NCBI RefSeq assembly: GCF_029855125.1
Contig: NZ_CP123229.1
Span: forward strand, 806,001 to 870,000
Origin: Methylocapsa sp. D3K7
Lineage (GTDB): Bacteria; Pseudomonadota; Alphaproteobacteria; Rhizobiales; Beijerinckiaceae
DNA: 64,000 nucleotides
Direction of reading: 5' to 3'
A program made the translations under genes and the position numbers. Of this stretch, positions 12,676 to 45,642 are shown in pieces. Under the pieces are notes generated by a model, which saw nothing but the letters and a program-made list of their open reading frames with translations, did not search any database and had not been told where the DNA came from. How positions within the stretch are numbered: position 1 is the stretch's first letter; each line of letters opens with the position of its first letter.

Positions 12676-12697
12676 AGATTTGGCTCCCTGAGCAGGA
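12676..12697 (-). repeat. left attachment site (displaced tRNA-Asn 3' end)
   Basis: This is the distal copy of the 22-bp direct repeat. It starts AGATTTGGCTCCCTGAGC, the reverse complement of the tRNA-Asn acceptor end and CCA. The match stops at the next base on each side. Confidence 0.88.
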
Positions 12698-12756
12698 GCC
12701 TAATAACATGAATAAATACTTGAAAATAAAAGATAATTCTGCAAAAAATAAATTTT

Positions 12757-12777
12757 TATACCAACAAAGATACCAAC
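12757..12777 (+). promoter_or_regulatory. putative integrase arm-type sites, left end
   Basis: TATACCAAC and GATACCAAC lie 12 bp apart start to start, embedded in AT-rich DNA 60 bp inside the left end. A 21-bp stretch here (12758-12778) is identical to 45493-45513 at the other end of the island. This placement is typical of recombinase arm-binding sites. Confidence 0.65.
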
Positions 12778-12821
12778 AAATTTTCAAGCTGTCTTGGCCA
12801 TCAGCGCCGGTAGATCTGACC

Positions 12822-13142
12822 TTACGCCCATCGAAACGTCGGCGATCCGGAACGCAAGCGCACAGGCGTGGCCCGGCGCCGCGGCTGGTGCTGCAAACAC
12901 CGTTGGCGCTTGATTCTCGGCGATGTTCCAATCTTCGCCGGAGGCCTTCGGACCAGACATGAAAACCACTGTGGGTGAGCCAATTCCACGACACTCCAGC
13001 AGAACACGACCTCGACCGTCGTCGAATTGGCGTCAGACTTCAATTCGCTCTTGTGCGGGGTCGTCAGCGGCTCACTCGATGGAACATAATCGAGCCGGCC
13101 CCGGAGTTCATTTCTTTCATCTGAAAGTCCGGACTCCTCCAT
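12822..13142 (-). CDS. hypothetical protein at island left end
   Basis: This is a 106-codon frame starting MEESGLSDERNELRGR, 13 bp after the stop of the gene upstream on the same strand. The first 50 residues have plausible composition (VPSSEPLTTPHKSEL), but the C-terminal half becomes Arg/Pro/Cys-rich. A second frame (12784-12969, starting MVFMSGPKASGEDWN) looks more protein-like there, so a frameshift or two overlapping genes are possible. I do not recognise a family. Confidence 0.3.
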   Translation of the reverse strand: MEESGLSDERNELRGRLDYVPSSEPLTTPHKSELKSDANSTTVEVVFCWSVVELAHPQWFSCLVRRPPAKIGTSPRIKRQRCLQHQPRRRATPVRLRSGSPTFRWA

Positions 13143-13155
13143 TCCGAGACTTGGA

Positions 13156-13425
13156 TTAGCGAAGCGTCTCCTCGGCCAAGAAAGCGGCTATGTCGCGCGC
13201 CACCTCCGCCTGCATTCGCACACGCTCCGCCGCTCCCTCGCTCGGCTTCTCGGGGCCGGCGCCGTCTTGGGCCTTATCCAGATTGACGGCAGCCTGATCC
13301 CTTAGCGCGGCATAGGTCAGCACGCGGTCGATACAGCGCTGCCACTCGGAAGCGATAGCGGCCTTGATCGCGGCGTCCGCCGCCTCTCCCCGCTGTTGTT
13401 TTTCCACCGTCAATTGATCGCTCAT
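13156..13425 (-). CDS. hypothetical alpha-helical protein
   Basis: This is an 89-residue, Ala/Glu/Arg-rich, probably helical protein starting MSDQLTVEKQQRGEAADAA and ending FLAEETLR. The ATG at 13425 has AGGG 9 bases upstream; a GTG at 13488 would add 21 residues. It lies between the island left end and an IS5 element and may form an operon with the next frame. No known domain was recognised. Confidence 0.45.
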   Translation of the reverse strand: MSDQLTVEKQQRGEAADAAIKAAIASEWQRCIDRVLTYAALRDQAAVNLDKAQDGAGPEKPSEGAAERVRMQAEVARDIAAFLAEETLR

Positions 13426-13537
13426 GGTTTGCGCCCTTTGCCGGTAATGGAGGCTCAACGCACCCCCCTTAAAGATTATCTCTGACACGATTTGGTCAAT
13501 CGTGTCCTTCAGTCATCCGGTACAGCTATCAGGCTAA

Positions 13538-14469
13538 GAGCCTGACCCAAAAGGTTGTTGCGCTCGCGCTGGTTGCGTGATTCCCGAGATTCCGAAGCGT
13601 CGGAGGATGATTCGGAATGTGGACTGAGCAGCACCGCAAGATTTACCAGCGGGTCGAGAAGCGTTATCCGAGCGATATGACAGATGGCGAATGGGTGCGT
13701 CTTGAACCATTGATCCCGCCCGCCAAACCCGGTGGGCGTCCGCGCGAAACCAATATGCGCGAAGCGATCAACGCCATTCTTTATCTCCTTCGCACCGGCT
13801 GCCCATGGCGTTATCTTCCTCGCGAGGGATTTCCGCCGCGCTCGACTGTCTACAATATCTTTCGCAACTTCCAGAAAGCTGGCACCTGGGACGCGATCTG
13901 GGAACGATTGCATATGGATTTGCGTGAAGTCATGGGGCGTGAAGCGATCGCCTCGGCCGCGATCATCGACAGTCGATCCTTGAAGTCGGCGGAAAAAGGG
14001 GCGGTCATGACCGTCTGACCGGGTATGACGCCGGCAAGAAAGTGAAGGGACGCAAAATTCATGCGTTGGTCGATACGCAAGGTTTGCCGATGCGTATCGT
14101 CATTCATTCGGCGGGCGTCCAAGATCGTGATGGAGCCGCGTTCGTGCTCGATAAAATCCGCAACAGCTTCCCCTGGCTCGAACTCTTGTGGGCGGACAGC
14201 GGATACAACGCACATCAGGTTGACGCGGCGGTCGCGAAGGTTCCTTCGCTGCGCATTGAGATCGTCAAGCGCAGCGACGACATGAATGGCTTCGTCTTGC
14301 TGCCGCGCCGCTGGGTTGTCGAAAGAACCTTCTCATGGTTCGGGCGCAACCGCCGCCTCGCCAAGGATTGGGAAAATCTCGCCGCAACGCTTCAAGCCTT
14401 CTTCGCTCTCGCCTCGATCCAGATCGCCATCAGACGACTCGCCCGATAGTTGTCTTTTGAGTCAGGCTC
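13538..14469 (+). mobile_element. IS5-family element (IS427/IS1031-like), copy 1
   Basis: The element is 932 bp, with terminal inverted repeats beginning GAGCCTGACCCAAAAG on the left and the complement of CTTTTGAGTCAGGCTC on the right. It is flanked by the 3-bp direct repeat TAA (13535-13537 and 14470-14472), as expected for a group using TNA targets. It contains one two-frame transposase and appears structurally intact. Confidence 0.85.
13617..14449 (+). CDS. IS5-family transposase, two frames joined by -1 frameshift
   Basis: Frame 1 (13617-14018) encodes the N-terminal DUF4096-like domain (MTDGEWVRLEPLIPPAKPGGRP) up to IIDSRSLKSAEKG. It then runs into a stop after the run AAAAAGGGG near 13994-14002. 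The -1 frame continues GYDAGKKVKGRKIHALVDT through RRWVVERTFSWFGRNRRLAKD to the stop at 14449, giving the complete DDE domain. This arrangement is the usual programmed frameshift of this IS group rather than decay. A very similar layout is seen in the second IS5 copy at 36554-37489. Confidence 0.85.
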
Positions 14470-14788
14470 TAAGTGTTGGTGACGGCGCCCTGATGCTTCG
14501 GTCGTGGAAAAATAATGCATTTGACGTGGCGGAAAAGCTGATGTTCCGATCGGCCTTCAGGCGCACCCGCTGCGTCGTGCCGGCGTTGACACACCGCCGG
14601 AACAGCAGCGGCGACTGCTTTGGGCCGAAAGGGGACGGACTGCTTCCGAGCGAGCGACCCGAGAAAGCGGACGCAAGCCGACTTGGGAAGAGCATTGCAG
14701 AATGCCGGCGACAGTGACTACACTGCCCTCGGAACGGGCGAATGAGCCATCCAGCGAGGAAATGCCGTGTTGCAGCGTTCGCGTCAAA

Positions 14789-16348
14789 ATGGGTGAGTCC
14801 GCACCCGCACCGACCGTCCTGATCGTGGGGGCAGGTCCGGCGGGATTGTTCGCAGCCTGCGAACTTCTGCGCCATGGCGTCAAGCCGCGCATCGTGGAAC
14901 GCAGGCTTGCGCCGCATGGCGAGACTCGCGGGACAGCCCTCCAGCCGGCGGTGCTGGAGATTCTTGACCGGGCCGGCCTGATCGAACCGTTCCTTCGCGC
15001 AGGCGTGCGCGTCAGGCACATTCAACTCTTAGGTCCGGGTTTACAGGAGATCTTGAAGTCGAGTTTCGAGGATGTTGGCTGCACGTATGAGTTTCAGTGC
15101 AGCCTTCCGCAATGTCGCACCGAGGCAATCCTGCGCGAACATTTAAAGAGGCTTGGCCTTGAGATCGAATTCGGCACCAATGTCACATCGATCGAAGATG
15201 TTCCGGCCGACCTGCGCATGACGCTCGAAACCGACGGGCGAACGGAGCTCGTCACGGCGGCTTACGTTCTAGGCGCAGGCGGTGGCCATAGCATAACACG
15301 CCATTCGATGCAGGAACATCTCGCGGGAGAAACCTATGACGGTCGATATGTGGTCGCCGATGTGAAGTTTCGACTTCCCTGCCCACCCGAATGCGGCCGC
15401 GTCATTGTGGGGTCTACTGGGTTCGGACTGTTCTCGCCGCTGCCTGATGACCGCTGGCTTATTTTTGTCAATCGCGACGAGGCTGATAAGCGGCGCGAGC
15501 TTCCTACGGCAGCTGATTTGAGCGCGCTGCTCAATGCCCGGATCGGGGTTGACGTGGGGTTGAGCGATCTCCGATGGGTTTCCTATTTCAAGATGCACAA
15601 GCGTGACGTTGAGAGGATGAGCGATTGGCGGCGTTTCCTGTTGGGCGACGCCGCCCATCTGTCCAGTCAGCTCGGCGGGGAGGGAATCAACGCAGCGTTT
15701 ATGGACGCGGCTGACATCGCCTGGAAACTCGCCCTTGTCATACTCGGCGCGGCGCAACCATCACTACTCGACAGCTATGCAATCGAACGGGGGCTTGCCG
15801 ACCACCACGTGCTGGAAGTATCGGACGAGGTTCACAGCCTTGTGATGGAGCTTGTCGCGATGTGCGACGGCGGTGGCGCGCCGACCCTGCCGCCGCGGGA
15901 TCCGGCACAGAACGTGGCTGCGGCACGCAGACGGTCGATGCTTGATGTTTCCTACGCGGGAAGCGCGCTCGTCGGTCAGGCCGGCGCAGTCGTCGAAGGA
16001 CCGTCACCGGGAGACCGTTTCCCCGCCTGCTTAAGCCTAAGCGGTACGTGCCACCATCTGATCGTGTTCGGCGAGGCGCCTCGCTTGGACTATCTCCGCG
16101 CCCGCTGGGATAAACTCGTCTCGATTGTAGATGCTTCAAGCGCGCATTTCGATGCGACCAAGGCCGGCGTGCCTAACGGCGGTGCCATCCTCATTCGGCC
16201 GGACGGCTTCATCGGGTTCCGTGCCACACCCGCCAACGAAACGACAATGGACGCCATGGACGCCCACCTGACGACCTATCTGGTGCCCAACGTCGGCGCG
16301 GAACGAAGGGCAGTAATCAACTGTAGTCGTTCCGCAGATAGCGACTGA
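14789..16348 (+). CDS. FAD-dependent aromatic monooxygenase (PheA/TfdB type)
   Basis: This flavoprotein hydroxylase probably uses NAD(P)H and O2 to hydroxylate an aromatic or polyketide-like substrate. It shows the dinucleotide fold LIVGAGPAGLFAACELL at the N-terminus, the DG-type middle region, the second FAD motif LLGDAAHLSSQLGGEGINAA, and a thioredoxin-like C-terminal domain (about 430-519). The start is chosen at 14789, just before the FAD motif; upstream ATGs at 14702 and 14762 would add non-conserved residues. It stands alone, without ring-cleavage or regulator genes, so the substrate is unknown. It is island cargo just right of IS5 copy 1. Confidence 0.82.
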   Translation: MGESAPAPTVLIVGAGPAGLFAACELLRHGVKPRIVERRLAPHGETRGTALQPAVLEILDRAGLIEPFLRAGVRVRHIQLLGPGLQEILKSSFEDVGCTYEFQCSLPQCRTEAILREHLKRLGLEIEFGTNVTSIEDVPADLRMTLETDGRTELVTAAYVLGAGGGHSITRHSMQEHLAGETYDGRYVVADVKFRLPCPPECGRVIVGSTGFGLFSPLPDDRWLIFVNRDEADKRRELPTAADLSALLNARIGVDVGLSDLRWVSYFKMHKRDVERMSDWRRFLLGDAAHLSSQLGGEGINAAFMDAADIAWKLALVILGAAQPSLLDSYAIERGLADHHVLEVSDEVHSLVMELVAMCDGGGAPTLPPRDPAQNVAAARRRSMLDVSYAGSALVGQAGAVVEGPSPGDRFPACLSLSGTCHHLIVFGEAPRLDYLRARWDKLVSIVDASSAHFDATKAGVPNGGAILIRPDGFIGFRATPANETTMDAMDAHLTTYLVPNVGAERRAVINCSRSADSD

Positions 16349-16824: not shown

Positions 16825-17092
16825 TTGCTCGTTACAGTCCGCGACAATAACATCGACCAGGCATTGAAATTCCTGAAGAAAAAAATGCAGCGCGAGGGAA
16901 TATTCCGAGAGATGAAGCTCCGGTCCGCCTATGAAAAGCCGTCTGAAAGAAAAGTGCGGGAGAAAGCGGACGCCATTTCGCCGCGCTCGCAAGCTCGCCC
17001 GCAAGACTGCTATTCGCGATGGTTTGATTGCCGCCCCCAAACCGAAAACACCAGCACCCGGCCAACGCAAGCCAGCTTTCGCTCAGCTATAG
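16825..17092 (+). pseudogene. rpsU: 30S ribosomal protein S21, frameshifted copy
   Basis: A TTG start with GGAG 8 bases upstream opens [18 protein letters not shown], followed by [20 protein letters not shown], the S21 signature. After KADAI one extra T (near 16976-16978) shifts the frame. In the +1 frame the expected basic tail ([17 protein letters not shown]) and a Pro/Lys extension continue to a TAG at 17092. Without the T the protein would be about 88 residues, a normal S21 with an alphaproteobacterial tail. As written it encodes a long wrong C-terminus. It lies in the island, so it is an extra copy or a captured gene. Confidence 0.75.
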
Positions 17093-17465
17093 AAGCCTCG
17101 ACGTCGAGACAAAGCGACTCAGTGAACGGCCCCAGCGGCTTCGCTGGGAATGTCCGCTTATGCGTTCCACACGATAACCCTCGAACGACCTGGTTGGGCG
17201 CGAAATAGAAGCGGCGGGCCGAAAGGGGCATGACGGCTTTCGGGCGATGAGATGGAAAAGAGGACCTTGGCCAAATGGCACAGTCCGACCCCAAAGCGGT
17301 CCTTCGGCATCGTGCAGAAATCAACATGGGCTGTCCCGTCGGACCGGGTGCTCGGCGCGAAAAGAGCCCCAGCCGCGTTGTGTCTCGGCCATCTGATGAC
17401 GTCCCCCCATTGGAGCGGCGCGCGCAGAACAATCTCGGCAATGCGCTCAAGCTTCCACCGCTGCG
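17093..17465. other. non-coding stretch with repeat fragment
   Basis: This 373-bp spacer contains GGTTGGGCGCGAAATAGAAG (from 17193), a variant of the motif ATTGGGCGCGAAACAGAAGC seen near 21202. It therefore holds a fragment of the island's dispersed repeat. No gene was seen. Confidence 0.4.
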
Positions 17466-18371: not shown

Positions 18372-18786
18372 TTTATTGCCCCTTGGCCGTATTCGCCCAT
18401 TCGTAGATACGGCCGCTCGGCTCGCAAGCAGCTTAATGAGGTGACGTCCGCCCGACTTGTCGATTGTGCAAAATAAACTGTGCCCCCGGCGGCAGGTCCA
18501 GTTTAGGTCATTTTCGACGTTCCGCACGTGTGTCGGACCGATCCGGTTTAACTCAATAACCGGACGCGTGGATAGCACTCAGACACTTCGGAGTCGCGCC
18601 ACGAGCGGCCATGCACCGACGAGTGCCGAATAGCTAATATAATTCCGCCAAAGCGGACTTCTCGGCGGGGAATTGCTTATTCCGCTCGTACTTGAGCTTA
18701 CTAGAGGTACCTGAGACGCGATCTGCACTGTTTGGCGCAACTGGCCTCTTTGACCCCACGCGCATTGTCAAATATCGCGGCCATTC

Positions 18787-20830: not shown

Positions 20831-21914
20831 CCGGCGATTGTGCGATCAGAAGCCGTAGCTCAATTCGTAGTTCCAGCGCCGTTCACGCAGCGCTCGTAGA
20901 GCTTATCATAACGCGAGGCGATTTTACTGCGTGCCGCAGAATCTTGCGCATGAGCCGCCCTACGGCTGCTCGGTCTCGTGGACTTTGGATCAAACGTCGA
21001 GAACGAAGCCGTCCTGGTCGAAGGCGCGCTATCTTACAGGAAGCATCTTCATCTTCAGTGACGCGGGAATTTCCACTTCTGGCGCACTGGCAACATTCTG
21101 GCGGCTTGACCGAATCTCCGCTTTCCACTCATCAAAGCCGTAAACATCTTAGGGTGGACGTCCGCTTTGGAGAAGCGGCTACGGTCGGCTGGAGGATGCA
21201 ATTGGGCGCGAAACAGAAGCGGCTGGCCAGAAGGGGAAGGTCCGGTTCCCGGTCCGAAAACGAAGTTTTGGACATTCGCTTCGCAAGTCTCGTGCGTTCG
21301 GAAAAGAGCGATCCTTCTCTTCCCAACCTCGGCCGCCTTGCGCCAATTCCGGAAATAACCCCGAGTCTTCGACAAGTACATGTTCGCAAAGGTCAATCGC
21401 CAGCATGAACATATGTCTTGTGTATTACGGCTGGCTGGTTTGTCCTTGGTCTGCGACTCATGATGCCCATGGTCTACAGCTTCTGGTCAGTTCCTAAACC
21501 GTCCAGCAATGGCTTTCGGCGAATTTAATGAATGCGTTGAGGTCGTCATCTCGTTCACGCAAACACAGAAGACTGCACGTTCTAAAGAATTCCATGTCGG
21601 CGACCTGCGCCAGCTTCACGGCCGGTGCCCTGAGGCGAGCCGAAATAAATGATAAACCTGCTCCGGCGGAGACGAGAACGAGTGTCCTGTCAATTTTGAG
21701 TATCTTAATACCGCGAGAGAAGAGAGCATTGCTTGAATCCTCGAACATGTCGCGACCTGTCCGTCTGGACCGAGGCGGCTAAACCGCCTTTCCGATCGTG
21801 CATGCCTGATGTCGCCCTGTCATCACTTTAGCCGCTTACATCTAGTCTTTTATGCGCTTGATGACCCGCCCAGATTGTGCTTGCGATACGGATCTGGCAG
21901 TAGAAACAACAGCC
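20831..21914. other. 1.1-kb non-coding stretch
   Basis: No gene with convincing composition is present. A minus-strand frame of 84 codons at 21494-21748 is the most protein-like, but I recognise no family. One copy of the dispersed repeat lies at 21123-21193. Confidence 0.4.
21123..21193 (+). repeat. dispersed island repeat, copy A
   Basis: About 71 bp here match 26456-26527 with roughly 85-90% identity and the same orientation, e.g. GTCCGCTTTGGAGAAGCGGC versus GTCCGCTTTGGAGAAGCAGC. The following bases (from 21202, ATTGGGCGCGAAACAGAAGC) resemble 17194 onward. Confidence 0.7.
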
Positions 21915-24389
21915 ATGAAGTTTGCCACTCCGCTTCCGATTGACGCCGTCCTGGCTGAATTGACAACGGCTTTGGCCGCGCACAGATCTGCCGTCCTAGT
22001 CGCCCCACCCGGCGCTGGTAAAACGACACGCGTCCCTCTCGCCTTGATGGATGAAAGCTGGCTCCTGGGTCGAAAGATCCTGGTTCTGGAACCGCGGCGC
22101 ATTGCCGCGCGGGCTGCCGCCGAGCGCATGGCACACACCTTGTCGGAGGCTATCGGAGGGCGGATCGGATTGCGTGCGCGGATGGTCTCGAAATCAGGGC
22201 CGAATACATGTATCGAGGTCGTCACGGAGGGAGTCTTTACCCGCATGATCCTCGATGATCCTGAGCTTTCCGGGATCGGCGCGGTGCTGTTCGACGAGTT
22301 CCACGAGCGCTCGCTCGATGCCGATCTGGGACTTGCCCTCGCGCTCGACTGCCAGTGCGGCTTACGCGATGACCTGCGCATCCTGCCAATGTCGGCGACG
22401 CTAAATAGCGCTCGGGTCGCCCAACTTCTCGGCAATGCTCCCATCATCGCCAGCGAAGGTCGCGCGTTCCCGGTCGAGACGCGTTATCTCGGCCGTGCTG
22501 ACAACGCGCGCATCGAGGACCAAATGGCAGACGCGGTGATGCGGGCCTTGCGGACGGAATCCGGTTCAATCCTGGCGTTCCTGCCGGGCCAAAGCGAGAT
22601 CCGGCAGGTTGAGGAGCGGTTGCAGGAGCGCATCAGCGATCCGACAATCGTGCTTGCCCCGCTTTACGGGGCGATGGACATGAAAGCGCAGGACCTCGCA
22701 CTCAAGCCAGCACCCAAGGGAGTGCGCAAGGTGGTGCTCGCGACCTCGATTGCCGAGACGTCGGTTACCATCGAGGGCGTGCATGTCGTCATCGACAGTG
22801 GTCTTGCGCGAGTTCCACGTTTCGAGCCGGACGTCGGCGTGACACGGCTCGAGACTGTGCGCGTGTCTCGTGCCGCCGCCGATCAGCGGAGGGGCCGCGC
22901 TGGCCGTACCGAGCCAGGTGTCTGCTTTCGCCTGTGGGACGAGCCGCAAACGCAGAGCCTTCCAGCTTTCGCCGAGCCCGAGATTCGCTCTGCCGATCTT
23001 ACAGCCCTGTTGCTCGACTGCGCGGAATGGGGAACAACCGATCCGCTCTTGCTGTCTTGGATCGATCCACCGTCGGCCGCCGCCACAAACGCCGCGCGCG
23101 AGGAACTGATGGAGTTGGAAGCGCTAGACAAAAGAGGCAGCATCACGGCCATGGGGAGGCGGCTCAGGTCGCTGCCTCTGCCTCCCCGGCTTGCTCGTAT
23201 GGTGATTTTTGCAGCCGAGGTGGGCCAGGCAGAGAAGGCTGCCGAGATCGCTGCGGTTATGGTGGAACGCGGGTTAGGCGGCAATGATGTCGATCTCGCA
23301 TATCGGCTAGAAGATTTCCGCCGTGACCGCTCGCGTCGCGCGAGTGAGATGCGAAAGCTAGCTGTCGGCTGGGCCCAGATGGCAAATGCGGGGCGCTCGG
23401 CACAAGAGCCTCGTGAGGACATGTCGGTCGCGCGCACGCTGGCGTTCGCCTTTCCGGAGCGCATCGGCAAAGCACGTGGCGCACCGGGCCACTTTCTCCT
23501 CGCCAATGGCCGCGGCGCCAGCCTTGATTCGACTCATCCTTTGGCGCGATCACCTTTCCTCGTCTCTGCCGAGCTGTCGGGATCAGCGGGGTCAACGCGC
23601 ATCCTGCTCGCAACCTCAGCTAATGAAGCGGACATTCTCGCTGCCGCCAGTCATCGCATCCGCGAGAAGGACGAGATCGAGTTCGATCAAAGCGCAGGCG
23701 CGCTGAGGTCGCGCCGTGTCCGCCGTCTTGACGCCATCCTGCTCGCAAACGAGCCCAAGGCGGTAATCGCGAGCGAGGAGGCTGCGCGTCTACTGGCTGA
23801 CGGCATTGCACAGCACGGACTGAGCCGTCTGCCGTGGAGCAAGGCGCAAATTCAGCTCCGTGACCGGGTCGGCTTCTTGCGCGCGGCCGGAGAGGACGAA
23901 TGGCCGGACCTGACCATTGAAGCGCTTGCCAAGACGGCCGCGGAATGGCTTGCCCCTTTCCTAGCTGGTAAGACGAAGCTCTCCGAGATCGGCGCTGATG
24001 ACCTCGGCGCGGCCCTCGATGCGCTGCTGCCATGGAACTTAAAGCGGCGCTTGGACGAAGAGGCTCCGACGCATTTCGAGGCGCCCACGGGCAATCATCA
24101 CGCCATCGATTACGAGACGGGACCCGCGCCCACCCTGCACATCCGCGTGCAGGAGTTGTTTGGGCTGACGCAACATCCTTCGATCGCCAAGGGCAAGCTG
24201 CCCCTCACACTGTATTTGCTCTCGCCGGCGCACCGGCCGATTCAGATCACGCGCGATCTCCCGGGTTTCTGGAAGGGATCGTGGACGGCGGTTAAGGCCG
24301 ACATGAAAGGGCGCTATCCGCGGCATCCCTGGCCCGACGATCCCACCTCGGCAGTTCCGACCTCTCGGGCCAAGCCACGCGGAACGTGA
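21915..24389 (+). CDS. hrpB: ATP-dependent helicase HrpB
   Basis: HrpB is a DEAH/RHA-type helicase of unknown cellular role. The 824-residue protein shows Walker A PPGAGKT near residue 36, the family-specific DEFH box in LFDEFHERSLDADLGLALAL, MSATLN, ATSIAETSVTIEG and QRRGRAGRTEPG. The HrpB C-terminal domain ends near WPDDP, as in the family. The start at 21915 (MKFATPLPIDAVL) matches family N-termini; upstream ATGs at 21852 and 21861 add unlike residues. A chromosomal housekeeping-type gene on an island is unusual; whether another copy exists elsewhere cannot be told. Confidence 0.93.
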   Translation: MKFATPLPIDAVLAELTTALAAHRSAVLVAPPGAGKTTRVPLALMDESWLLGRKILVLEPRRIAARAAAERMAHTLSEAIGGRIGLRARMVSKSGPNTCIEVVTEGVFTRMILDDPELSGIGAVLFDEFHERSLDADLGLALALDCQCGLRDDLRILPMSATLNSARVAQLLGNAPIIASEGRAFPVETRYLGRADNARIEDQMADAVMRALRTESGSILAFLPGQSEIRQVEERLQERISDPTIVLAPLYGAMDMKAQDLALKPAPKGVRKVVLATSIAETSVTIEGVHVVIDSGLARVPRFEPDVGVTRLETVRVSRAAADQRRGRAGRTEPGVCFRLWDEPQTQSLPAFAEPEIRSADLTALLLDCAEWGTTDPLLLSWIDPPSAAATNAAREELMELEALDKRGSITAMGRRLRSLPLPPRLARMVIFAAEVGQAEKAAEIAAVMVERGLGGNDVDLAYRLEDFRRDRSRRASEMRKLAVGWAQMANAGRSAQEPREDMSVARTLAFAFPERIGKARGAPGHFLLANGRGASLDSTHPLARSPFLVSAELSGSAGSTRILLATSANEADILAAASHRIREKDEIEFDQSAGALRSRRVRRLDAILLANEPKAVIASEEAARLLADGIAQHGLSRLPWSKAQIQLRDRVGFLRAAGEDEWPDLTIEALAKTAAEWLAPFLAGKTKLSEIGADDLGAALDALLPWNLKRRLDEEAPTHFEAPTGNHHAIDYETGPAPTLHIRVQELFGLTQHPSIAKGKLPLTLYLLSPAHRPIQITRDLPGFWKGSWTAVKADMKGRYPRHPWPDDPTSAVPTSRAKPRGT

Positions 24390-24570
24390 TCGAATGAACT
24401 TACAGCAGCGTGCAATCCGTATGACCATATTGAAGACTATAGCATCAATTATTCTCCCTTCGCCCGTGGCGATCAGGGGGCTTCCGAAGCGAGTCGGGAA
24501 CCGTTGAACGAACGACCGGTATTGGAAGGGATAGTTAGGCTCGTGAACGACGTACATGGGTCAATTGTCA

Positions 24571-24652
24571 ACGTTTCGCCCGGGTGCCAGACTGGTCCGA
24601 TGTTCCTCAAGATCCGGACGTGCTGGCAACAATCAGACACTTCAGAGTCGCA
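24571..24652 (+). repeat. dispersed inverted repeat, copy 1
   Basis: About 80 bp match the reverse complement of 31931-32014 at roughly 85% (shared pieces include ACGTTTCGCCCG, CCAGACTGGTCCG and ACTTCAGAGTCGC). A fragment of it (TCAGACACTTCGGAGTCGCG) also occurs at 18579-18598. The repeat is non-coding, between hrpB and the AEC permease gene. Confidence 0.65.
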
Positions 24653-24662
24653 CCAACAGTGG

Positions 24663-26208: not shown

Positions 26209-26690
26209 ATTCCCGCGAGGTCGCACTCGGGCACCGATCCGAAGTCAATATCCCAAAGCCGGAACGATGCACGGGGACAAAGTCAATCTGGACGCGGTCT
26301 CCGCTCGATGTCGGGCCGGTCGCCATCGACGCCAGCACCTAGGACCCGCCCTGCATGCTGATGGATCCAGAACTGACCGACTGCTTCCGGCCCGAGCGGG
26401 CCATACGACGAATGTCCGCTTCTCGGTCTCGCCGTCCCAGAGCGGATCGTCGCAAATCCACCCATCATAGCCGTGAACACCTTTAGGGTGGATGTCCGCT
26501 TTGGAGAAGCAGCTATGGTCGGCTGGACGGCCCAAATGGGCGCGATTCAGCGCTTCGCAGGCTCGGCCTTATCTGTCCGGTTTTCACCCGACCCGGCCGT
26601 TCGCCAGAGTCGTCGTGAGTCGCAACTTAGGAGTCAAAATGCAAAGTAACTGCACGATCCGGCCATGTCCGACAGCATACGGGAATAACA
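26209..26690. other. non-coding stretch with dispersed repeat
   Basis: This is a 482-bp spacer without a convincing gene. The repeat copy at 26456-26527 lies in it, preceded by a related stretch (26395-26425, ACGAATGTCCGCTTCTCGGT). Confidence 0.4.
26456..26527 (+). repeat. dispersed island repeat, copy B
   Basis: This is the partner of 21123-21193 in direct orientation. It differs by a few substitutions and one indel. Confidence 0.7.
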
Positions 26691-31930: not shown

Positions 31931-32014
31931 CGCGACTCTGAAGTACCTGATTGTGGCCAGTACGTCCGGTTCTTGAGGTACACCGGACCAGTCTGGCTTA
32001 CGGGCGAAACGTCG
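31931..32014 (-). repeat. dispersed inverted repeat, copy 2
   Basis: This is the reverse-complement partner of 24571-24652, about 85% identical. Confidence 0.65.
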
Positions 32015-32172
32015 AGAATGGCACAAAACAGAATTCGCCGCGGGCCACCCCTCTACCGTGCGAAGGAGTGAGATGGTAGTCTTGCAAGAGTGGGAGGACC
32101 AGTTGCCGGCAGCTTACTCGGCGGAGGTGAGCCGGCGCGGCCGTTTGCACGGCGTTGATGAGAGGGAGTGAG

Positions 32173-33799: not shown

Positions 33800-34999
33800 T
33801 CAAGTCTCATCTAGTGCGGTCATTTCTTTCAGCGCCGTTGCCGCAGACGAATAGCCTCCGCGTGCGCCATCAATAAAGTGGACGTGATTGCTGTCGGTGG
33901 CGGAGGGCGTGAAGCAAGTCATCACCGCAGCGTCCTGGAGGTGCAGTCCATAGCGGACCGTTCCAGCCGATGCCGCGGCAACAAGGCGTCCCTCGATTTC
34001 ACCGACGAGGTCGGGCGTGCAATCGAGGATCATGCGCAAGCCATCGGCAAATTTACGGAAATCAGAATTCTCGACCACTTGCTGCAGATAAGTCATCGGC
34101 ACGAAGCTGCCCACACGAATGCCGTATCGCAAAATAAAATAATAGATAAAGGTCCGCACAAGGACAGCGCTCCGCCGCACGAACAGCGGCATTTCAGCGT
34201 TGCGCGCGGCGCGCGCCTCAAGTTCAGCACCAGCCGCCGGCCAACGCATCCGGAGGCCGGCAAGCGAGACAGGATTGGACATGTCCGGGCTCTTGGCGAT
34301 GACCGCGACGATGTCATCGATGGCCGCACGGAAAGCGTCGGGGTCGGCGCCGCGGGCCGGCACGATAAGCAGCGAAAGGACCACTCCACGCGCAGCCGGC
34401 ATTTCCTCGAACCGGCACGACAGGCCGGTGAGATCCGGACGAATGCCCGGCGGCGCGGGAACAACCGCGAACCCACCTCGCCGCATAGTGCCATCGGCCC
34501 ACTCCAAGCCGCCACCCGAGAACATCGCGTAGGTGACATTTGGAGACGGTGAGAAACGAGCCACACGTACATCGGCGCCTTGCGCGCGGATACATGCGAC
34601 CGGAACCAGCGCGGCCTTCATGACGAGATCAAGATCGTTCTTCACCCATGCCGTGGTGGCCGCAAGGGCTTCACGCGCGCGCTTAAGGTCCTGCGGCGGG
34701 ACGGCGAAACTCGCCCCGTCGCCGCCGAACACGTATGGGAAGTCGCTGCCGTCCAGCGCGTTTTTGAGCGCCGCAATAACGGCGGCGCCGGCCATGTTCA
34801 CGGCCTTGTATTGATTCTCGCGAATGGCCTTGGTCGACTGTACAATATCGGCGATGCCGATCGACCAGTTATTTGGTAGCGGCTTATAGAGGGCCGGATC
34901 CATCAGGCTCCCGAATCTGTCGAAGATCGGAATGCTCTCATAGAATTGATCTGCTTCGTTGCTCTCACTCGTTGCTCGAGTTGGCATTCCCACGGTCAT
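33800..34999 (-). CDS. DUF3095 protein
   Basis: This 399-residue protein has the hallmark segments of DUF3095: NNWSIGIADIVQSTKAIREN, then FPYVFGGDGASFAVPP, which recalls the metal-binding loops of class III nucleotide cyclases. Whether it is catalytic is unknown. There is no signal peptide or membrane helix. It is solitary, transcribed toward the cupin gene, and its stop lies 206 bp from that gene's end. Confidence 0.8.
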   Translation of the reverse strand: MTVGMPTRATSESNEADQFYESIPIFDRFGSLMDPALYKPLPNNWSIGIADIVQSTKAIRENQYKAVNMAGAAVIAALKNALDGSDFPYVFGGDGASFAVPPQDLKRAREALAATTAWVKNDLDLVMKAALVPVACIRAQGADVRVARFSPSPNVTYAMFSGGGLEWADGTMRRGGFAVVPAPPGIRPDLTGLSCRFEEMPAARGVVLSLLIVPARGADPDAFRAAIDDIVAVIAKSPDMSNPVSLAGLRMRWPAAGAELEARAARNAEMPLFVRRSAVLVRTFIYYFILRYGIRVGSFVPMTYLQQVVENSDFRKFADGLRMILDCTPDLVGEIEGRLVAAASAGTVRYGLHLQDAAVMTCFTPSATDSNHVHFIDGARGGYSSAATALKEMTALDET

Positions 35000-36553: not shown

Positions 36554-37489
36554 GAGTCGGTCCGGAAAGTTCATCAATTCAGACAAAGCTTTCTGAGCGT
36601 GAGACGAATTGAGGCGAGACGGAGAAAAGCGAGTGCGTTTCGGGTGAGATTTTCGAAGTCTTTGGCCAAGCGGCGGCAACGATTAAGCCAAGCGAAGGTG
36701 CGTTCGACAACCCAACGTCGCGGCAGAAGCTCAAACCCTTTGGCCTGATCGGAGCGTTTGACGATTTCGATTTGTATATGCGGCAGGATTTTGGCCGACG
36801 CCTTTTGAAAGACCGGGCCCTGATATCCGCCATCAGCAAAGAGCTTTTGTAAAAACGGATACAAGCCGAACAAGGTCGACAGAACAAGCACGCCACCATC
36901 CCGATCTTGAATGTCGGCGGGATGCACCACTGCATGCAGCAGCAGGCCTAGCGTATCGACGAGGATATGGCGCTTCTTGCCTTTGATCTTCTTGCCAGCA
37001 TCATAGCCGCTCGGATCGATGCGGCGCCCCCTTTTTCCGCGCTCTTTACGCTCTGGCTGTCGATGACGCAGGCCGTCGGGCTCGCTTCACGATCCATGGC
37101 TTCGCGACACTTCACGTAGAGCGCGTGATGAATGCGATCCAGCGTGCCGTCCCAGTTCCAAAGGTCGAAATAACCAAACAGCGTGCTCTTGGGCGGCAGA
37201 TCTTTGGGAACGTAACGCCACTGGCATCCCGTGCTCAGCACATACATGAGACCGTTCACGATTTCCCGCGGCTCAACAGAGCGCTTGCGTCCGCCACGTT
37301 TGGCCGGTGGAATAATCGGCTCGATGTGCGACCACTCATCGTCCGTCAGATCGCTCGGATAGCGCAGTTTGTCACGATTGTATTTCGGGCGGTTTTCGGA
37401 CGTCCACATTGGCGGCCTCTCATCGAATCAGGCAGCCGCCAATGAATCACAAATGATTCATCCGATTCAACTACTTCCCGGACGGACAC
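36554..37489 (-). mobile_element. IS5-family element, copy 2
   Basis: The element is 936 bp. Its terminal repeats are GAGTCGGTCCGGAAAGT on the left and the complement of ACTTCCCGGACGGACAC on the right. TTA is duplicated on both sides (36551-36553 and 37490-37492). Its ends and transposase differ clearly from copy 1, so it is a distinct IS of the same group. Confidence 0.85.
36574..37409 (-). CDS. IS5-family transposase, two frames
   Basis: The first frame (37409-36948) carries the N-terminal domain with LRYPSDLTDDEWSHIEPIIP and ACVIDSQSVKSAEKGG. It shifts at the run AAAAAGGGGG. The second frame continues through DIQDRDGGVLVLSTLFGLYP and RRWVVERTFAWLNRCRRLAK to LTLRKLCLN. A programmed -1 frameshift is the likely expression mode. 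No other damage was seen. Confidence 0.82.
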
Positions 37490-38637: not shown

Positions 38638-38678
38638 GCGCCCCCCACAACTCGCAGCAGTCATTCGCCACAGCGAAG

Positions 38679-39064: not shown

Positions 39065-39105
39065 ATTTCCTTTTCGCTTTCGGCTTCCCCGAGGATCACG
39101 CCGGC

Positions 39106-39240: not shown

Positions 39241-39440
39241 GACGCAAGCTTATCATTTATGGGGAATAGCTGAGAACTTCCACCGCAAGTGCAAGCGCGT
39301 TCACGAAACAAATCGCCGCCGGCATCTAATAATGGTGAGCCTTTGTTCTCATGTATATACTTTCGATAACTCGGAGGGGTGCCGGACAGGGTTATTGGGG
39401 CCAGCCCTTCCTCGTGAGCTTTTTGGGAATAGAAATCTCA

Positions 39441-39860: not shown

Positions 39861-40170
39861 GAGAAATTCTTACGGCGTGCCCAGTGCTCTCGATGACGAT
39901 CACACATTGTCCTGGCGCTTGAGGCCGGACGCTACGCCTTATCGCGATCACCTAGTGGGCTTTGAAAAAGGCCGCCGAATTAAGCGGCCAAGTCACACCG
40001 GGGAGTTGATGGGAAGTGAACTTCGTACATTGTGAAAGGTTCGTATTACGTCTTATTGCCGCTGCTCAATTCTACGTGACTGCTATGCCGCCAAGCTTGG
40101 TGTTTCCGGATAGGCAACCAAAGGGCTAGGCGCGTCGTTTGTGAGCCGTAGAAGCGCAAGGAGATTACCT
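39861..40170. other. intergenic region with hairpin
   Basis: This is a 310-bp spacer. Apart from the hairpin at 39965-39989, no gene or repeat was recognised; it carries the upstream region of the PRC-barrel gene. Confidence 0.4.
39965..39989 (-). terminator. possible intrinsic terminator (minus strand)
   Basis: On the minus strand a GGCCGC/GCGGCC stem with an 8-base loop is followed by TTTTT. The nearest minus-strand gene upstream ends at 40653, so the transcript it serves is unclear. Confidence 0.4.
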
Positions 40171-40551
40171 ATGTTAAAATTGCTCGCTTTGGCCGCCACG
40201 GTGCTTGCATTCGCTTGCAGCGTCGCCTTTGCAGAGACTGTGCTTCCGATGGGCCAGTAGCTCGCCTCCGAAATCTATAAAACGAATGTTTATGATCCTT
40301 CCGAACAAAAAATCGGTAGAGCCACCGTTCTCATGATTGATAGCAACGGCAACGTAGCGGCGGCGATCATCAGCGTCAGCAGTGGTTTCCTTGGCGTTAA
40401 CCAGAAAGACGTCGTGATTCCCTTCAAGGAGCTGAAACTCTCGACTCGCGACGGCACGAATTCGCTGGTTCTCAATCGCACGAAAGACGATCTAATGACG
40501 GCTCCCGCCTACAACAACACGGGGGCCCCAAGCGACTATCGGAATCGCTAG
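40171..40551 (+). pseudogene. secreted PRC-barrel protein interrupted by amber codon
   Basis: AAGGAGA precedes the ATG at 40171. Codons 1-21 form a signal peptide (MLKLLALAATVLAFACSVAF). After PMGQ a TAG stands at 40258-40260. The same frame then continues without interruption for 96 codons with a PRC-barrel sequence (SEIYKTNVYDPSEQKIG, GFLGVNQKDVVIPF) to a TAG at 40551. Everything except the one codon looks intact. PRC-barrel proteins of this kind are periplasmic and of unclear function in alphaproteobacteria. Confidence 0.75.
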
Positions 40552-40652
40552 TCCTAACGCGCTTCGCCCGCAAGCCCGATAGCTGACCATAGCACCTCGG
40601 CGGCTGCAATTACGTTGGGCACCTCAATCCGGGCGGTAATTACATCCAGCGT

Positions 40653-41036
40653 TTAGCGCATCGATTTCCCGGCATCTCGAATAATCATTGGCGAGGGAGA
40701 CGGCTCCAAAAGCTCTCCGTGCAGTGTGTCAATATCCCCCGCATATTGGTTAACCACAGAATCTGGCCAATTGGCTTGCTGAATTGCCTCTTCAAATCTC
40801 GCCAGAGCGTCACGAGCTTCCGCGATGTGAAGCGTGAATTGAACACAGAGTGGGGTGCTTGGATTGCGCGGCTGGATTTCGTTTTTGATCATGGGTCGAT
40901 CCGATCGCAACCTGAGCCTCTCGGGACCCGGCGATGAGAAGATTTCTCGGCAAAAAGCATAGACGCAAGGGGAACGATTGTCGAAATATATCGCGATAAA
41001 TCGCAAGCCTGTGATGCTGCACTGCGGCAAGTTCAT
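40653..41036 (-). CDS. hypothetical protein, coupled to XRE gene
   Basis: The 127-codon frame starts at an ATG that overlaps the stop of the XRE gene (ATGA), which suggests translational coupling. The last 80 residues (IAEARDALARFEEAIQQANW) are helical and protein-like; the first 48 are less convincing. An internal start at 40892 is possible. No family was recognised. Confidence 0.45.
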   Translation of the reverse strand: MNLPQCSITGLRFIAIYFDNRSPCVYAFCREIFSSPGPERLRLRSDRPMIKNEIQPRNPSTPLCVQFTLHIAEARDALARFEEAIQQANWPDSVVNQYAGDIDTLHGELLEPSPSPMIIRDAGKSMR

Positions 41037-41272
41037 TTCGCCTTCCGCTTGGCTTTCTTGAGCCGCACGCCCGGGCCGCCGCCATTCTCGGCGATGAACT
41101 CGACGTCGGCCGATTCCAATGCTCGGCTGATCGCTTGAACAGCTTCAGGGGATACGGCCCTGCGGCTTCGTTCGAAATCAACAACGGTAGACAGCCCAAG
41201 CCCTGCAGCTTCAGCTAACTGTGGCTGTGTCCAATCAAGCAAGGCTCTGGCGGCTCGACAGTGGGCAGGCAT
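41033..41272 (-). CDS. XRE-family helix-turn-helix regulator
   Basis: This 79-residue protein starts MPAHCRAARALLDWTQPQLA. The helix-turn-helix is followed by GLGLSTVVDFERSRRAVSPE and the C-terminal signature FIAENGGGPGVRLKKAKRK. This is a common compact XRE regulator in Rhizobiales islands. Longer starts exist at 41356 and 41386. It probably controls the adjacent small operon. Confidence 0.8.
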   Translation of the reverse strand: MPAHCRAARALLDWTQPQLAEAAGLGLSTVVDFERSRRAVSPEAVQAISRALESADVEFIAENGGGPGVRLKKAKRKAK

Positions 41273-41342
41273 CAATTCAGGGATTGCTGCCTCGCGCAAG
41301 CGACGGGCGTCAGGACGTATGATTAGGCTTACAATCGGGAGA

Positions 41343-41816
41343 TCAGCGACGTCCATTTGGTGCCCCACGCGCAATGCGCGGCTCATTCAAGCGGTTCTTC
41401 CAAAACGGCTGCAGCTCTGCCTCTTGATTTGGCAAAGATCGCGGCGCTACCCGATTGGATGGTTGTCCAGTCAGCATGCTTTTCCTCAAGCACAGCGACA
41501 CCTCGGGCTCGTGGAGCGGCCTCTTGATCGGTGTGGCATCATCAGCGATTTCGACGACATGCACGCGGATGTCTCTGCGCCCGCATCTGCCGGTTACCAA
41601 GCCAGTAAACCGGATCACGTCGCCGGCCTGCCTTTCCATCGGGACCGCTATGGTTTCGGGCGCTTGACAGATGAGCCACAAGTCCAGGACTGGTAAATTC
41701 AGAGCCCAGCTTCCCGATACTCCCGCGATTGGCCCCGGCTCAGTCTCGGCACCCACCATGACCATAGTTCCTTTGTTTGTGGGTGCTGGACAGCTCTTAA
41801 GTTTGGCCCTTGTCAT
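41343..41816 (-). CDS. hypothetical protein of integrase-linked module
   Basis: The ATG at 41816 overlaps the stop of the preceding gene (ATGA). The 157-residue product has a beta-rich core (ALNLPVLDLWLICQAPETIA, GDVIRFTGLVTGRCGRRDIR). By eye this resembles an OB-like fold, but no family was recognised. The C-terminal third is low-confidence and overlaps the longer start options of the XRE gene. Confidence 0.5.
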   Translation of the reverse strand: MTRAKLKSCPAPTNKGTMVMVGAETEPGPIAGVSGSWALNLPVLDLWLICQAPETIAVPMERQAGDVIRFTGLVTGRCGRRDIRVHVVEIADDATPIKRPLHEPEVSLCLRKSMLTGQPSNRVAPRSLPNQEAELQPFWKNRLNEPRIARGAPNGRR

Positions 41817-42922: not shown

Positions 42923-42925
42923 GGC

Positions 42926-43168
42926 TTAGGTCCCTTGCTCGACAAGCCTATCGAGCTCTGCTTCAGGTACAAGGGTGCGGCTGCCAATCCGAATGAGTTT
43001 GATCTTACCGGCGGCCGCGAGCGCGTACAGATGGCTTCTAGATATTTTCAGCGCGTCGCAGGCGTCATTGATACGGCGCGCGCGCGGGTAATTGAGTGCA
43101 GTCGATTTCTTGCCGACTGGCGCATCGCCTAACGGCGAGCGGATAGCGATATGGGAAGCTGAGATCAT
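42926..43168 (-). CDS. excisionase-like helix-turn-helix protein
   Basis: This 80-residue protein ends in a MerR-like winged helix: RARRINDACDALKISRSHLY, AAGKIKLIRIGSRTLVPEAE, LDRLVEQ. This is the layout of AlpA/Xis-type proteins that direct excision of integrase-bearing islands. The ATG at 43168 has GAGG 8 bases upstream; a GTG at 43306 overlapping the preceding stop would add 46 residues. A CTCGCCC/GGGCGAG hairpin at 43280-43302 lies before this start and may attenuate read-through. Confidence 0.7.
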   Translation of the reverse strand: MISASHIAIRSPLGDAPVGKKSTALNYPRARRINDACDALKISRSHLYALAAAGKIKLIRIGSRTLVPEAELDRLVEQGT

Positions 43169-43302
43169 ATAGTCGTCCTCGGATGTGGCTTTGTTCCGTC
43201 GATGACGGACACGCGAGGACATAAGATCAGACCTATGAGGCCGGTAAAACGCAGGGTCCCTGAGATAAATTTTAACGGCTCGCCCTGTAGAAAACGGGCG
43301 AG

Positions 43303-44049
43303 TCACTTCCTGTCATGATTTTGCTCGTCTCTTTGGGATTTCGTTCTACCCAACGCCGTAGCAATCGTGTGCGGCGAGACAGCATTTATTCCGGGGAATA
43401 GCTTCAAATAATTCTGAACAGCTTGCACGAATTGCACAAATGCCCCGCGAGGGGTTCGATCCTCCGCTCCTTCTGAAGGTGTTGACGCAGTAGCTTCCTT
43501 GCCAAAATGCTTTTTGAAAATCGGCGCTAATTCCCACGCGATGATCCAGGAAACGCTTGCGTGGGGATTGTGCCAAAAGAGCGAACGGAGCGAATAGAAG
43601 GGCGGGGGGCTGGATTCAGGAAGTTTGCCTGCCTCCTTCCCTTGTTGGATTTCTGCATTCGCTTCTGAAATAATTTGGTCTGCGTCCTGAATGAGAGAGC
43701 TGAGCGAAAGCATTAGCTCACCATACGCCTTTGGACTTCCATCTTGATGACGACGATAGAATGGGCTCAAAAATTCAAGGAGAGTGTCGATTTCATGGGA
43801 AGAGCTGAGAGCAGAAAGAAGTTTTTTGGCATGGCTTTTGACAGTCTCGGCATGCCGCTTCCGTTTTGTAGGGAATACCTTCCGAGAGGATGATGTGTGG
43901 CGAATCTGCTCAGCGCTTACCCTAAGCCTATCGAGATCTGCGCCCAACGCTGCAAGGTCCACATTAACCGCCGTTAATCCGACCGCCTCAACAATCCGTT
44001 TCACGATGTCTTCGTCAACGGGCTTGAATGCGCTCAAAAGCCTCAACAA
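43303..44049 (-). CDS. hypothetical protein, start uncertain
   Basis: This is a 248-codon frame whose only early start is TTG at 44049, with an in-frame stop directly before it. The protein is mostly helical, with VDEDIVKRIVEAVGLTAVNV near the N-terminus and SLRSLFWHNPHASVSWIIAW in the middle. The missing conventional start suggests a truncated 5' end, possibly at the recombinase relic just upstream. No family was recognised. Confidence 0.5.
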   Translation of the reverse strand: MLRLLSAFKPVDEDIVKRIVEAVGLTAVNVDLAALGADLDRLRVSAEQIRHTSSSRKVFPTKRKRHAETVKSHAKKLLSALSSSHEIDTLLEFLSPFYRRHQDGSPKAYGELMLSLSSLIQDADQIISEANAEIQQGKEAGKLPESSPPPFYSLRSLFWHNPHASVSWIIAWELAPIFKKHFGKEATASTPSEGAEDRTPRGAFVQFVQAVQNYLKLFPGINAVSPHTIATALGRTKSQRDEQNHDRK

Positions 44050-44107
44050 TTACGACATCGCGAGCATCCGCGCGCATCAGAGGAACGCAGGGAAACCAAG
44101 CGATGCT
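44015..44107 (-). pseudogene. possible serine-recombinase fragment
   Basis: The minus strand reads LMRADARDVVIVEAFERIQAR and then stops. It resembles the resolvase motif in which ...DVVIVEA(L/F)DR precedes the conserved SRD. It is very short; treat as a weak relic call. Confidence 0.25.
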
Positions 44108-44250
44108 CCTTGGCTTGTCGGCCCGTCGGCCTATCCCAGCGTGTTCATGGTTGCGCGTGGACGCTCGATTTTCTACCGATTGTTTGAAGCGGCATGTGGA
44201 AATCCACCATCAAATGCGGGAATTTGGGAAGCCGAGGACGTGGATGTTCG

Positions 44251-45462
44251 TCAACTTTTCTTGGCGATCGTGTCACCCCCGCAACGCAACTCACCACATC
44301 GATCAGCCCACCAGGTCATCATGCGAACGCGCTCGTCCCAAAAATCAGCACGGGCATAGGCACGGCGGACGCTATCATTGTCCACATGGGCTAATTGGCG
44401 TTCGATGGCGTCGGAATTCCAAAGGCCGCTTTCGTTCAACATTGAAGACGCCGACGAACGAAAGCCGTGGCTGGTCATTTCGTGGCCGGTAAACCCTAGA
44501 CGGCGAAGCGCCCCATTGATGGTGTTCTCGCTCATGCAGCGCGCCGGCAAGCGGATGGATGGAAAAACGAATTTTCCATGTCCGGTGATAGTTTGAAGCT
44601 CGCGCAAGATGGCGACGGCGCGGGCCGCGAGTGGAACGCGATGCGGTCGCCTCATTTTCATTTTCTCGCCAGGGATTGACCAGACCGCCGCGTCAAGATC
44701 AAATTCTGTCCATTCAGCCGCGCGAAGCTCGCCAGGGCGCACTAACGTTAGAGAGATCAATTCCAGCGCCATGCGCGTTTCCGGCGCACCCTCATAGCCA
44801 GATATGGCGCGGAGAAGCCCACCGAATGCTTTTGGCTCGATAATGGCGGCGCGATGCTGAACTGTTGGTGCGCTCAACGCGCCCTTCAATGCACCCGTAG
44901 GATCAGCGTCAGCGCGCCCAGTTGAGACGGCGTAGCGGAAGACTTGCCCGATGGTTGAGCGGAGCCGACGAGCGGTTTCAAGCTTGCCACGAGATTCCGC
45001 GCTCCTGAGAATGGCCAACACTTCTGGAGCGGTTATCTCGGATACCGGCCTCGCCCCGATTGCTGGGCGGGCGAGCCCAACTAGCCATTGGAACTTTTCG
45101 AGAGTCGGCGGGGCTTTCCTTTCCCTCCGCTTCTTATCCAAAAGCTCGATCGCGATTGCGTCGAATGTGTTGGCGGACGCGGTGGCCTTTGTAGCCTTGG
45201 CGAGCCTTTTGACGAGCAATGGGTCTTGTCCAGCAGCCAAGAGCCGCTTGGCTTCTTCCCGCGCGGCCCGCGCCTCGCGAAGGCCGGTTGCAGGATAGAC
45301 GCCGATGGCAAGCAGCTTTTGAGAACCACCAGAGCGGTAAGCCAACCGCCAGCGCTTGGCACCATCGGGCGTGATCCATAATTGCAGTCCGCCACCATCT
45401 GACAACTTTACGAGGCGGGAGGCGGGCTTGGCGGCCCGAATTTCGAGATCGGTAACGGCCAT
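44251..45462 (-). CDS. int: P4-type tyrosine integrase
   Basis: This 403-residue integrase of the P4/DUF4102 family has the N-terminal arm-binding domain (TDLEIRAAKPASRLVKLSDG, LAIGVYPATGLREARAAREE), the core-binding domain, and the catalytic domain with Arg in TLVRPGELRAAEW, HGFRSSASSML and the nucleophile Tyr in NDSVRRAYARADF. It probably inserts and excises the island at tRNA-Asn. Its gene starts 163 bp from the tRNA 3' end and reads away from it. An inverted arm-type motif touches its start codon and overlaps its ribosome site, which suggests autoregulation. The gene looks intact. Confidence 0.95.
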   Translation of the reverse strand: MAVTDLEIRAAKPASRLVKLSDGGGLQLWITPDGAKRWRLAYRSGGSQKLLAIGVYPATGLREARAAREEAKRLLAAGQDPLLVKRLAKATKATASANTFDAIAIELLDKKRRERKAPPTLEKFQWLVGLARPAIGARPVSEITAPEVLAILRSAESRGKLETARRLRSTIGQVFRYAVSTGRADADPTGALKGALSAPTVQHRAAIIEPKAFGGLLRAISGYEGAPETRMALELISLTLVRPGELRAAEWTEFDLDAAVWSIPGEKMKMRRPHRVPLAARAVAILRELQTITGHGKFVFPSIRLPARCMSENTINGALRRLGFTGHEMTSHGFRSSASSMLNESGLWNSDAIERQLAHVDNDSVRRAYARADFWDERVRMMTWWADRCGELRCGGDTIAKKS

Positions 45463-45531
45463 GTTGGTATCTTTTCAGGCGGCAATGGCTGGATACCAAC
45501 AAAGATACCAACATTTGACGCGGATACCAAC
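45463..45531. promoter_or_regulatory. putative integrase arm-type sites, right end
   Basis: GATACCAAC occurs at 45492-45500, 45504-45512 and 45523-45531. It occurs inverted (GTTGGTATC) at 45463-45471, directly against the int start codon. Left-end counterparts are at 12757-12777. Confidence 0.7.
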
Positions 45532-45620
45532 GCACATCCAAAAACGTCTGTGGACAGAGATTGCACTCTAAGTCCCTGTTTTTCTGTTATTTTTGGACGA
45601 TTATGGATGCAGGCGGATAA

Positions 45621-45642
45621 AGATTTGGCTCCCTGAGCAGGA
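45621..45642 (-). repeat. right attachment site within tRNA-Asn 3' end
   Basis: This is the proximal copy of the 22-bp direct repeat. It covers the last 17 bases of tRNA-Asn including CCA and 5 bp beyond, and is identical to 12676-12697. Confidence 0.88.

Follow-up and report, generated by a model that had tools for sequence, protein, structure and literature searches.

A tRNA-Asn-associated island in Methylocapsa sp. D3K7 and its family of tRNA-targeting integrases

Does the 33-kb stretch that lies between two copies of a tRNA-Asn 3' end in Methylocapsa sp. D3K7 constitute a single mobile element, and by which features can its ends be recognized? The stretch occupies positions 12676-45642 of a 64-kb segment of contig NZ_CP123229.1 (positions 806,001 to 870,000), which in its entirety is called the window here. 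A first-pass annotation had described it as an island bounded by a short direct repeat, with an integrase gene next to the tRNA gene. Islands that target tRNA genes by means of P4-type integrases were reportedly described by Williams in 2002. As judged from the comparisons presented below, positions 12676-45642 very probably represent a single integrated element, belonging to a family of islands that target tRNA genes and occur throughout the bacterial family. The island exemplifies well a type of mobile DNA that is already known, and the integrase family that surrounds it is of more interest than the island alone.

Ends of the island

The boundaries are marked by a 22-bp direct repeat, AGATTTGGCTCCCTGAGCAGGA, two exact copies of which are present on the same strand at 12676-12697 and 45621-45642, 32,945 bp apart from start to start. 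The repeat is composed of 17 nucleotides of the tRNA-Asn 3' end and 5 additional nucleotides. Next to the second copy, ARAGORN identified a whole tRNA-Asn (GTT) gene on the minus strand (45626-45701), the presumed target of integration; the far copy is a fragment of the tRNA-Asn 3' end from which no base has been lost. No third copy was found in the window when up to three mismatches were allowed (two matches versus 0.01 expected), and a 298-base query ending with the left copy retrieved only itself and the right copy from the 4.15-Mb genome (E ≤ 1e-3). The earlier description of the repeat as an exact tRNA-Asn 3' end plus 5 bp was thus borne out, both by ARAGORN and by the mismatch-tolerant search of the window. 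A tRNA 3'-end direct repeat at both boundaries is one of the features by which membership in the tRNA-targeting integrative islands is recognized.

A second exact repeat, of 21 bp, is found just inside both ends (12758-12778 and 45493-45513) and is built of tandem GATACCAACA-like units. When one mismatch was allowed, GATACCAACA matched six times in the window, every time at one of the two island ends. At the tRNA side, three units are located on the plus strand at 45492, 45504 and 45523 (45492-45532; the last with one mismatch), and a fourth, on the minus strand, touches the start of the integrase gene (45462-45471). At the far end, two tandem units are present on the plus strand (12757-12778; the first with one mismatch). 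We propose that these units are putative arm-type sites of the integrase. Since they lie just inside both repeats, they provide an independent signal joining the repeats as the ends of one element. That the two ends carry matching arm-type sites is a further membership feature of tRNA-targeting integrative islands. The sites were absent from the first-pass annotation and make the case for the island stronger than the repeat alone does.

The doubled GATACCAACA unit, searched with up to three mismatches, occurs at four places in the 4.15-Mb genome, versus none for a backward control pattern. All four are ends of elements of the same integrase family: two here, the integrase end of a tRNA-Thr element (938 kb) and, at 2,276,975, the far end of the tRNA-Met element described below. 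The far end of the window's island shares 21 nucleotides with its own near end; the near ends of 69 other family members share on average 9.8 nucleotides with it, and none of the 69 does as well. The same end layout was observed in the elements of G011, G013, G009 and G174 and in the tRNA-Met element of the window's own genome, and in relatives at Thr, Phe, Leu, Met and Asn genes. Co-variation of the arm-type sites within each element was considered as a general rule and rejected, as it is clear for the window and weak for many others. With arm-type sites and a tRNA fragment, island ends can be argued for from sequence alone where synteny with relatives fails.

Integrase and proposed mode of integration

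The integrase gene (44251-45462, minus strand) starts 164 bp from the end of the tRNA gene and encodes an uninterrupted P4-type tyrosine integrase of 403 amino acids with the Pfam domains Arm-DNA-bind_3, Phage_int_M and Phage_integrase. The residues R242, H332, R335, H359 and Y369, which we take to be the catalytic ones, are all present, and each is conserved in at least 97% of the sequences in an alignment of 77 rows. An intact P4-type integrase next to tRNA-Asn, as noticed before, was therefore confirmed by the uninterrupted reading frame, the three domains in P4 layout and the conserved residues, and it adds to the membership features of the island. Further inside the island, a protein of the HTH_17 (AlpA/excisionase-like) type is encoded at 42926-43306 (minus strand; Pfam PF12728, and a weak match to phrog_66 with E 4.8e-4), as well as an HTH_3 regulator at 41033-41386 (minus strand; Pfam).

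In the proposed mechanism, the integrase would bind the arm-type sites near both ends and catalyse recombination between the attachment site attP and a tRNA gene, at the 3' end of the latter. With tRNA-Asn as the target, the gene would stay whole and a copy of its 3' end would mark the far boundary. The HTH_17 protein is a candidate directionality factor, a circle may still form, and the cargo was presumably gathered stepwise from more than one source. The island is well delimited and possibly still mobile. Known tRNA-targeting islands with P4-type integrases (see Islander, PMC4383910) have the same arrangement, i.e., an integrase gene by the tRNA 3' end, a whole tRNA gene and a far 3' fragment. 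No essential difference from them was found; the arm-type sites and the set of targets are particular to the clade described here.

Integrase family and its tRNA targets

Relatives of the integrase were sought in 15 genomes of the genus and 298 of the family, the window's own included, and matches were reported at E ≤ 1e-90. Such matches are present in 67 of the 298 family genomes. The five nearest full-length integrases in other genomes are all located at tRNA-Thr genes (G011, 81%; G009, 79%; G300, 77%; G178, 76%; G013, 76%). The window's own genome contains two other copies, one truncated at tRNA-Met (79-80%) and one split at tRNA-Thr (76-80%). A tree was built from 77 of 104 rows (at least 45% identity, with a match extending from residue 25 or before to residue 385 or beyond); because of these requirements, the truncated and split copies are outside the tree. 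Just upstream of 70 of the 77 integrases, mostly at a distance of 160-200 bp, a tRNA gene is found, and the remaining 7 have no tRNA label. Together, the 70 labelled integrases are associated with eight anticodon types representing six amino acids.

On this quick tree, in which support is low for 22 of the 74 inner branches, the eight tRNA labels require 32 changes versus 45.1 after shuffling (0/200 as low), and the amino acids require 25; the three Asn rows alone need three changes. This suggests that tRNA targets are inherited to a degree, yet change often. The first-pass annotation had held that the island would be refuted if the closest relatives of its integrase used another tRNA as their target. 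Literally, this is the situation, as the nearest relatives are at tRNA-Thr; the island is not refuted by it, however, because target switching is common in the clade. Two reports describe target switching in pT26-2-type archaeal elements (PMC8371274) and in actinobacterial integrative and conjugative elements, AICEs (PMC3218068), where, similarly, closely related integrases are found at different tRNA genes. In contrast to those elements, the element studied here is bacterial, no transfer gene was found in 33 chosen open reading frames (ORFs), and its integrase gene is not split by the attachment site. The 70 sister integrases with a tRNA label, which cover eight tRNA types and for 37 of which the far end was measured, constitute a test set for target change and for the loss of bases from the displaced fragment that is discussed below.

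Displaced tRNA fragments

Sequence downstream of the integrase was available for 56 of the 70 labelled elements and was searched for the last 17 nucleotides of the target tRNA with up to two edits. A far fragment was found in 37 of the 56, versus 2 of the 56 for the reversed tail; the fragment in G011 (a 12-nucleotide exact match) and that of the tRNA-Met element of the window's own genome were not counted among the 37. In 29 of these 37 fragments, in 24 of 29 genomes, one acceptor-stem G that would directly precede the terminal bases is absent. The loss was seen in 14 of 15 fragments at Thr, 7 of 7 at Phe, 7 of 10 at Leu, 1 of 2 at Asn and 0 of 3 at Met. The window's own far fragment is complete. 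A T-to-G change at position -17 recurs in several far fragments of the family.

How the G was lost can be approached from the differences between fragment and host gene. In G140, the host tRNA has a T at -15 and the fragment a C, and the same applies to G277 if aligned without gaps; part of the fragment is, therefore, probably not derived from the host gene. In the 14 nucleotides after the CCA, the near and far ends agree at no more than six positions in 28 of 37 cases, which places the exchange before those nucleotides. Tentatively, the loss might be carried by the element itself rather than inflicted during integration: attP would be a slightly defective mimic of a tRNA end, and the exchange would take place in the last bases (..CACCA), which many tRNA genes share. 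The identical loss in 29 of 37 fragments and the mismatch at -15 in G140 (and in G277, on the gap-free alignment) argue for this idea. Against it, mismatches of the fragment to the host gene are concentrated at its left edge, so that the exchange point could lie anywhere from about -14 on, and the trait needs seven changes on the tree and is thus not fixed. If correct, such a mimic would allow the element to attempt insertion at further tRNA genes with its recognition site unchanged, which would account for the frequent switching.

Two reports (PMC4048246, PMC10111431) describe islands whose displaced tRNA fragment is damaged, and the family resembles them in that one acceptor-stem nucleotide is lost in most of the members measured. 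It differs from them in that the islands here belong to the Beijerinckiaceae group, that type I restriction-modification genes are present in two of them (G009 and G174), and that the fragment in the window is intact. According to one of the reports (PMC10111431), such damage is possibly restricted to phage-inducible chromosomal islands (PICIs). The elements of G009 and G174, which are annotated in part, appear not to be PICI-like, since they carry restriction-modification genes.

Flanks of the island

A clean core-gene boundary had been assumed on either side of the island. At the right side, this holds: a tRNA-Cys gene (45970-46043, plus strand; ARAGORN) is the neighbour, and tRNA-Cys adjoins tRNA-Asn in all 8 relative loci that contain tRNA-Asn. 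It does not hold at the left side, where the neighbour outside the element is an M32 peptidase gene (11096-12658, plus strand; Pfam) with a patchy distribution. In a search of the same genus and family genomes (matches reported at E ≤ 1e-100), M32 was found at 76-83% identity in 3 of 297 other family genomes (G003, in two pieces, G005 and G006), and the other 32 genomes with a match show at most 42% identity. No tRNA gene is present on the M32 contigs of G003, G005 and G006, which are short. For FtsK, the next gene past M32, the closest named match is from Methylocapsa aurea (78%), and the window's genome accordingly belongs, in all probability, to the Beijerinckiaceae. Of 80 FtsK loci retrieved from named genomes, 19 were checked (the first 18 listed and L299), and neither M32 nor tRNA-Asn was seen in their flanks. 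Hence, the uninterrupted junction from M32 to tRNA-Asn that the first-pass annotation had proposed to look for in relatives was found neither through M32 in the genus and family genomes nor through FtsK in these 19 loci. The gene surroundings of tRNA-Asn, M32 and FtsK vary among the species compared. A phasin gene is located 3' of tRNA-Asn in G005 and G010, and its best match in the window's genome is at 3.16 Mb, far from the island.

Alternative explanations

Several observations weigh against the interpretation of the locus as one integrated element. No far fragment was seen in 19 of the 56 elements within the sequence searched, which was short for several of them. In many relatives, the arms at the two ends of an element resemble each other weakly (mean shared length 11.3 versus 8.7, 36 elements). 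Since an unbroken junction of M32 with tRNA-Asn turned up in no relative, such a junction is a presumed original state of the left flank. There is no visible GC step across the cargo, and among the best 120 of 7997 database matches of its HrpB helicase are proteins labelled Methylocella sp., i.e., from the island's own bacterial family (88%, from a metagenome-assembled genome, and 86%). An outside origin of HrpB is, therefore, not certain; the labels, if right, put this type of HrpB in the own family.

The island could also be what is left of at least two elements that had stacked up at tRNA-Asn, with the five extra nucleotides of the far repeat (AATCT) as the start of an older, later deleted element and the present ends enclosing a composite. 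This is rather doubtful. The mosaic cargo would fit, as would the presence of AATCT after the CCA at both copies here and at 0 of 28 tRNA-Asn loci of relatives; moreover, in some relatives the sequence after the far fragment repeats the start of the element itself almost exactly (14 of 14 nucleotides in G226, at Leu, and 13 of 14 in G187, G132 and G108), which resembles tandem stacking. However, the corresponding count for the window is just 8 of 14 nucleotides, the left flank past AATCT is no closer to 69 family starts than shuffled sequences are (41/200 as good in local alignment), and the interior of the island contains neither a second relative of the integrase nor an arm-type site. It is very unlikely that the boundary was rearranged, in the sense that the element proper is a short one close to tRNA-Asn, and the 13-40 kb stretch, together with the far repeat, was brought in by, for example, an event between two IS4/5-type transposase copies. 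These copies, each consisting of two ORFs (13617-14449, plus strand, and 36574-37409, minus strand), are indeed inverted relative to each other, the window's element is longer than 35 of the 36 other family members measured (whole range 2.4 to 39.8 kb), and, as mentioned above, the surroundings of tRNA-Asn, M32 and FtsK vary. Yet, the copies are merely 67-73% alike, and the matching arm-type sites at the far end are correctly oriented and located 60 bp inward of the repeat, so both repeat and sites would have needed placing.

Least probable of all, and very remotely so, is an ordinary prophage or conjugative element at a tRNA gene, as an integrase, an excisionase-like HTH protein and a regulator next to the tRNA might suggest. 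Pfam detected no relaxase, transfer, secretion, packaging, primase/replication or phage structural family in the 33 chosen ORFs; four of the six ORFs beside the integrase have no Pfam family, and a diverged gene could escape the Pfam and PHROGs searches. Of 10 island proteins compared with PHROGs, three matched integrase, excisionase/regulator and regulator families, and two of them also matched families of unknown function. Primase/replication and packaging genes like those of PICIs or P4-like satellites were found neither in the 33 ORFs by Pfam nor in the 10 proteins by PHROGs. PADLOC, applied to 10 island proteins for defence systems, gave helix-turn-helix regulator-type matches alone, on two of them. 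A single integrated element with its own integrase and matching arms thus remains the preferred interpretation of the locus.

Sister elements

The tRNA-Met element of the window's own genome is 24 kb in length (G000:C1, about 2252962-2277080), and its far arm-type sites are identical to those in the window; the one at 2,276,975 is followed by a displaced tRNA-Met 3' fragment. It carries genes for a methylpurine glycosylase, a LigD-type ORF and a TonB receptor. The LigD-type ORF (458 amino acids) consists of the ligase C-terminal and primase-polymerase parts only. A gene that we take to be of the PRC type is common to the Asn island (40158-40553, plus strand, with an internal stop) and the tRNA-Met element, where it lies by the far end (L220, 4436-4831), with 80% identity at the DNA level and in opposite orientations relative to the integrase. 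A third family member, at tRNA-Thr(CGT) (G000:C1:938360-939445), has an integrase split over two frames and is a broken element; no far doubled arm site was found within the 18 kb examined.

Cargo

The cargo is a mosaic. Besides the genes already mentioned, it includes genes for a FAD (flavin adenine dinucleotide)-dependent aromatic-ring hydroxylase-type protein (14702-16348, plus strand; Pfam), an MFS transporter (27292-28599, minus strand; Pfam), an uninterrupted Mutator-family transposase (28985-30241, minus strand; Pfam) and a DUF3095 protein (33800-34999, minus strand; Pfam). Bestrophin-like, LTXXQ, membrane transport, cNMP-binding, glyoxalase, cupin and small metal-binding proteins are encoded as well. 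A second gene for ribosomal protein S21 (16831-16974, plus strand) matches positions 2-50 of the 55 in the profile; the S21 gene at 1,095,965 matches the profile in full, and the island gene is an extra copy. The suggestion that the site is old and decaying was not supported, as repeats, arm-type sites and integrase are all intact and few signs of decay were found, i.e., the internal stop in the PRC-type gene, the short match of the extra S21 copy and the insertion sequences.

No other copy of the HrpB helicase gene (21852-24389, plus strand) was found in the genome, and a horizontal origin of the gene is likely, as judged from the distribution of its relatives. The protein is 56-63% identical to HrpB in 9 of the 14 other genus genomes; the other five are without a match, two of them being less than 90% complete. 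In a comparison with 397 genomes of the order (matches reported at E ≤ 1e-250), 81-82% identity was reached in at least six genomes, all from other families, versus at most 63% in family genomes among the matches listed. Identities of up to 96% were found among the best 120 of 7997 database relatives, the named ones including Rhodomicrobium (85%), Hyphomicrobiaceae (85%) and Hyphomicrobium (84%). In G300 (L223, 8062-10558), an HrpB gene of the family type, 58% identical to that of the window, is located about 7 kb from a tRNA-Thr element, at the outer side of the tRNA gene.

Two families of dispersed repeats are found between the cargo genes. A cassette system based on repeats of about 90 bp was considered and is not supported, as the family searched occurs at five places genome-wide. 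This first family includes the copies at 21124-21211, 26457-26545 and 17194-17228, and the second family is located at 18509-18612, 24564-24655 and 31928-32019.

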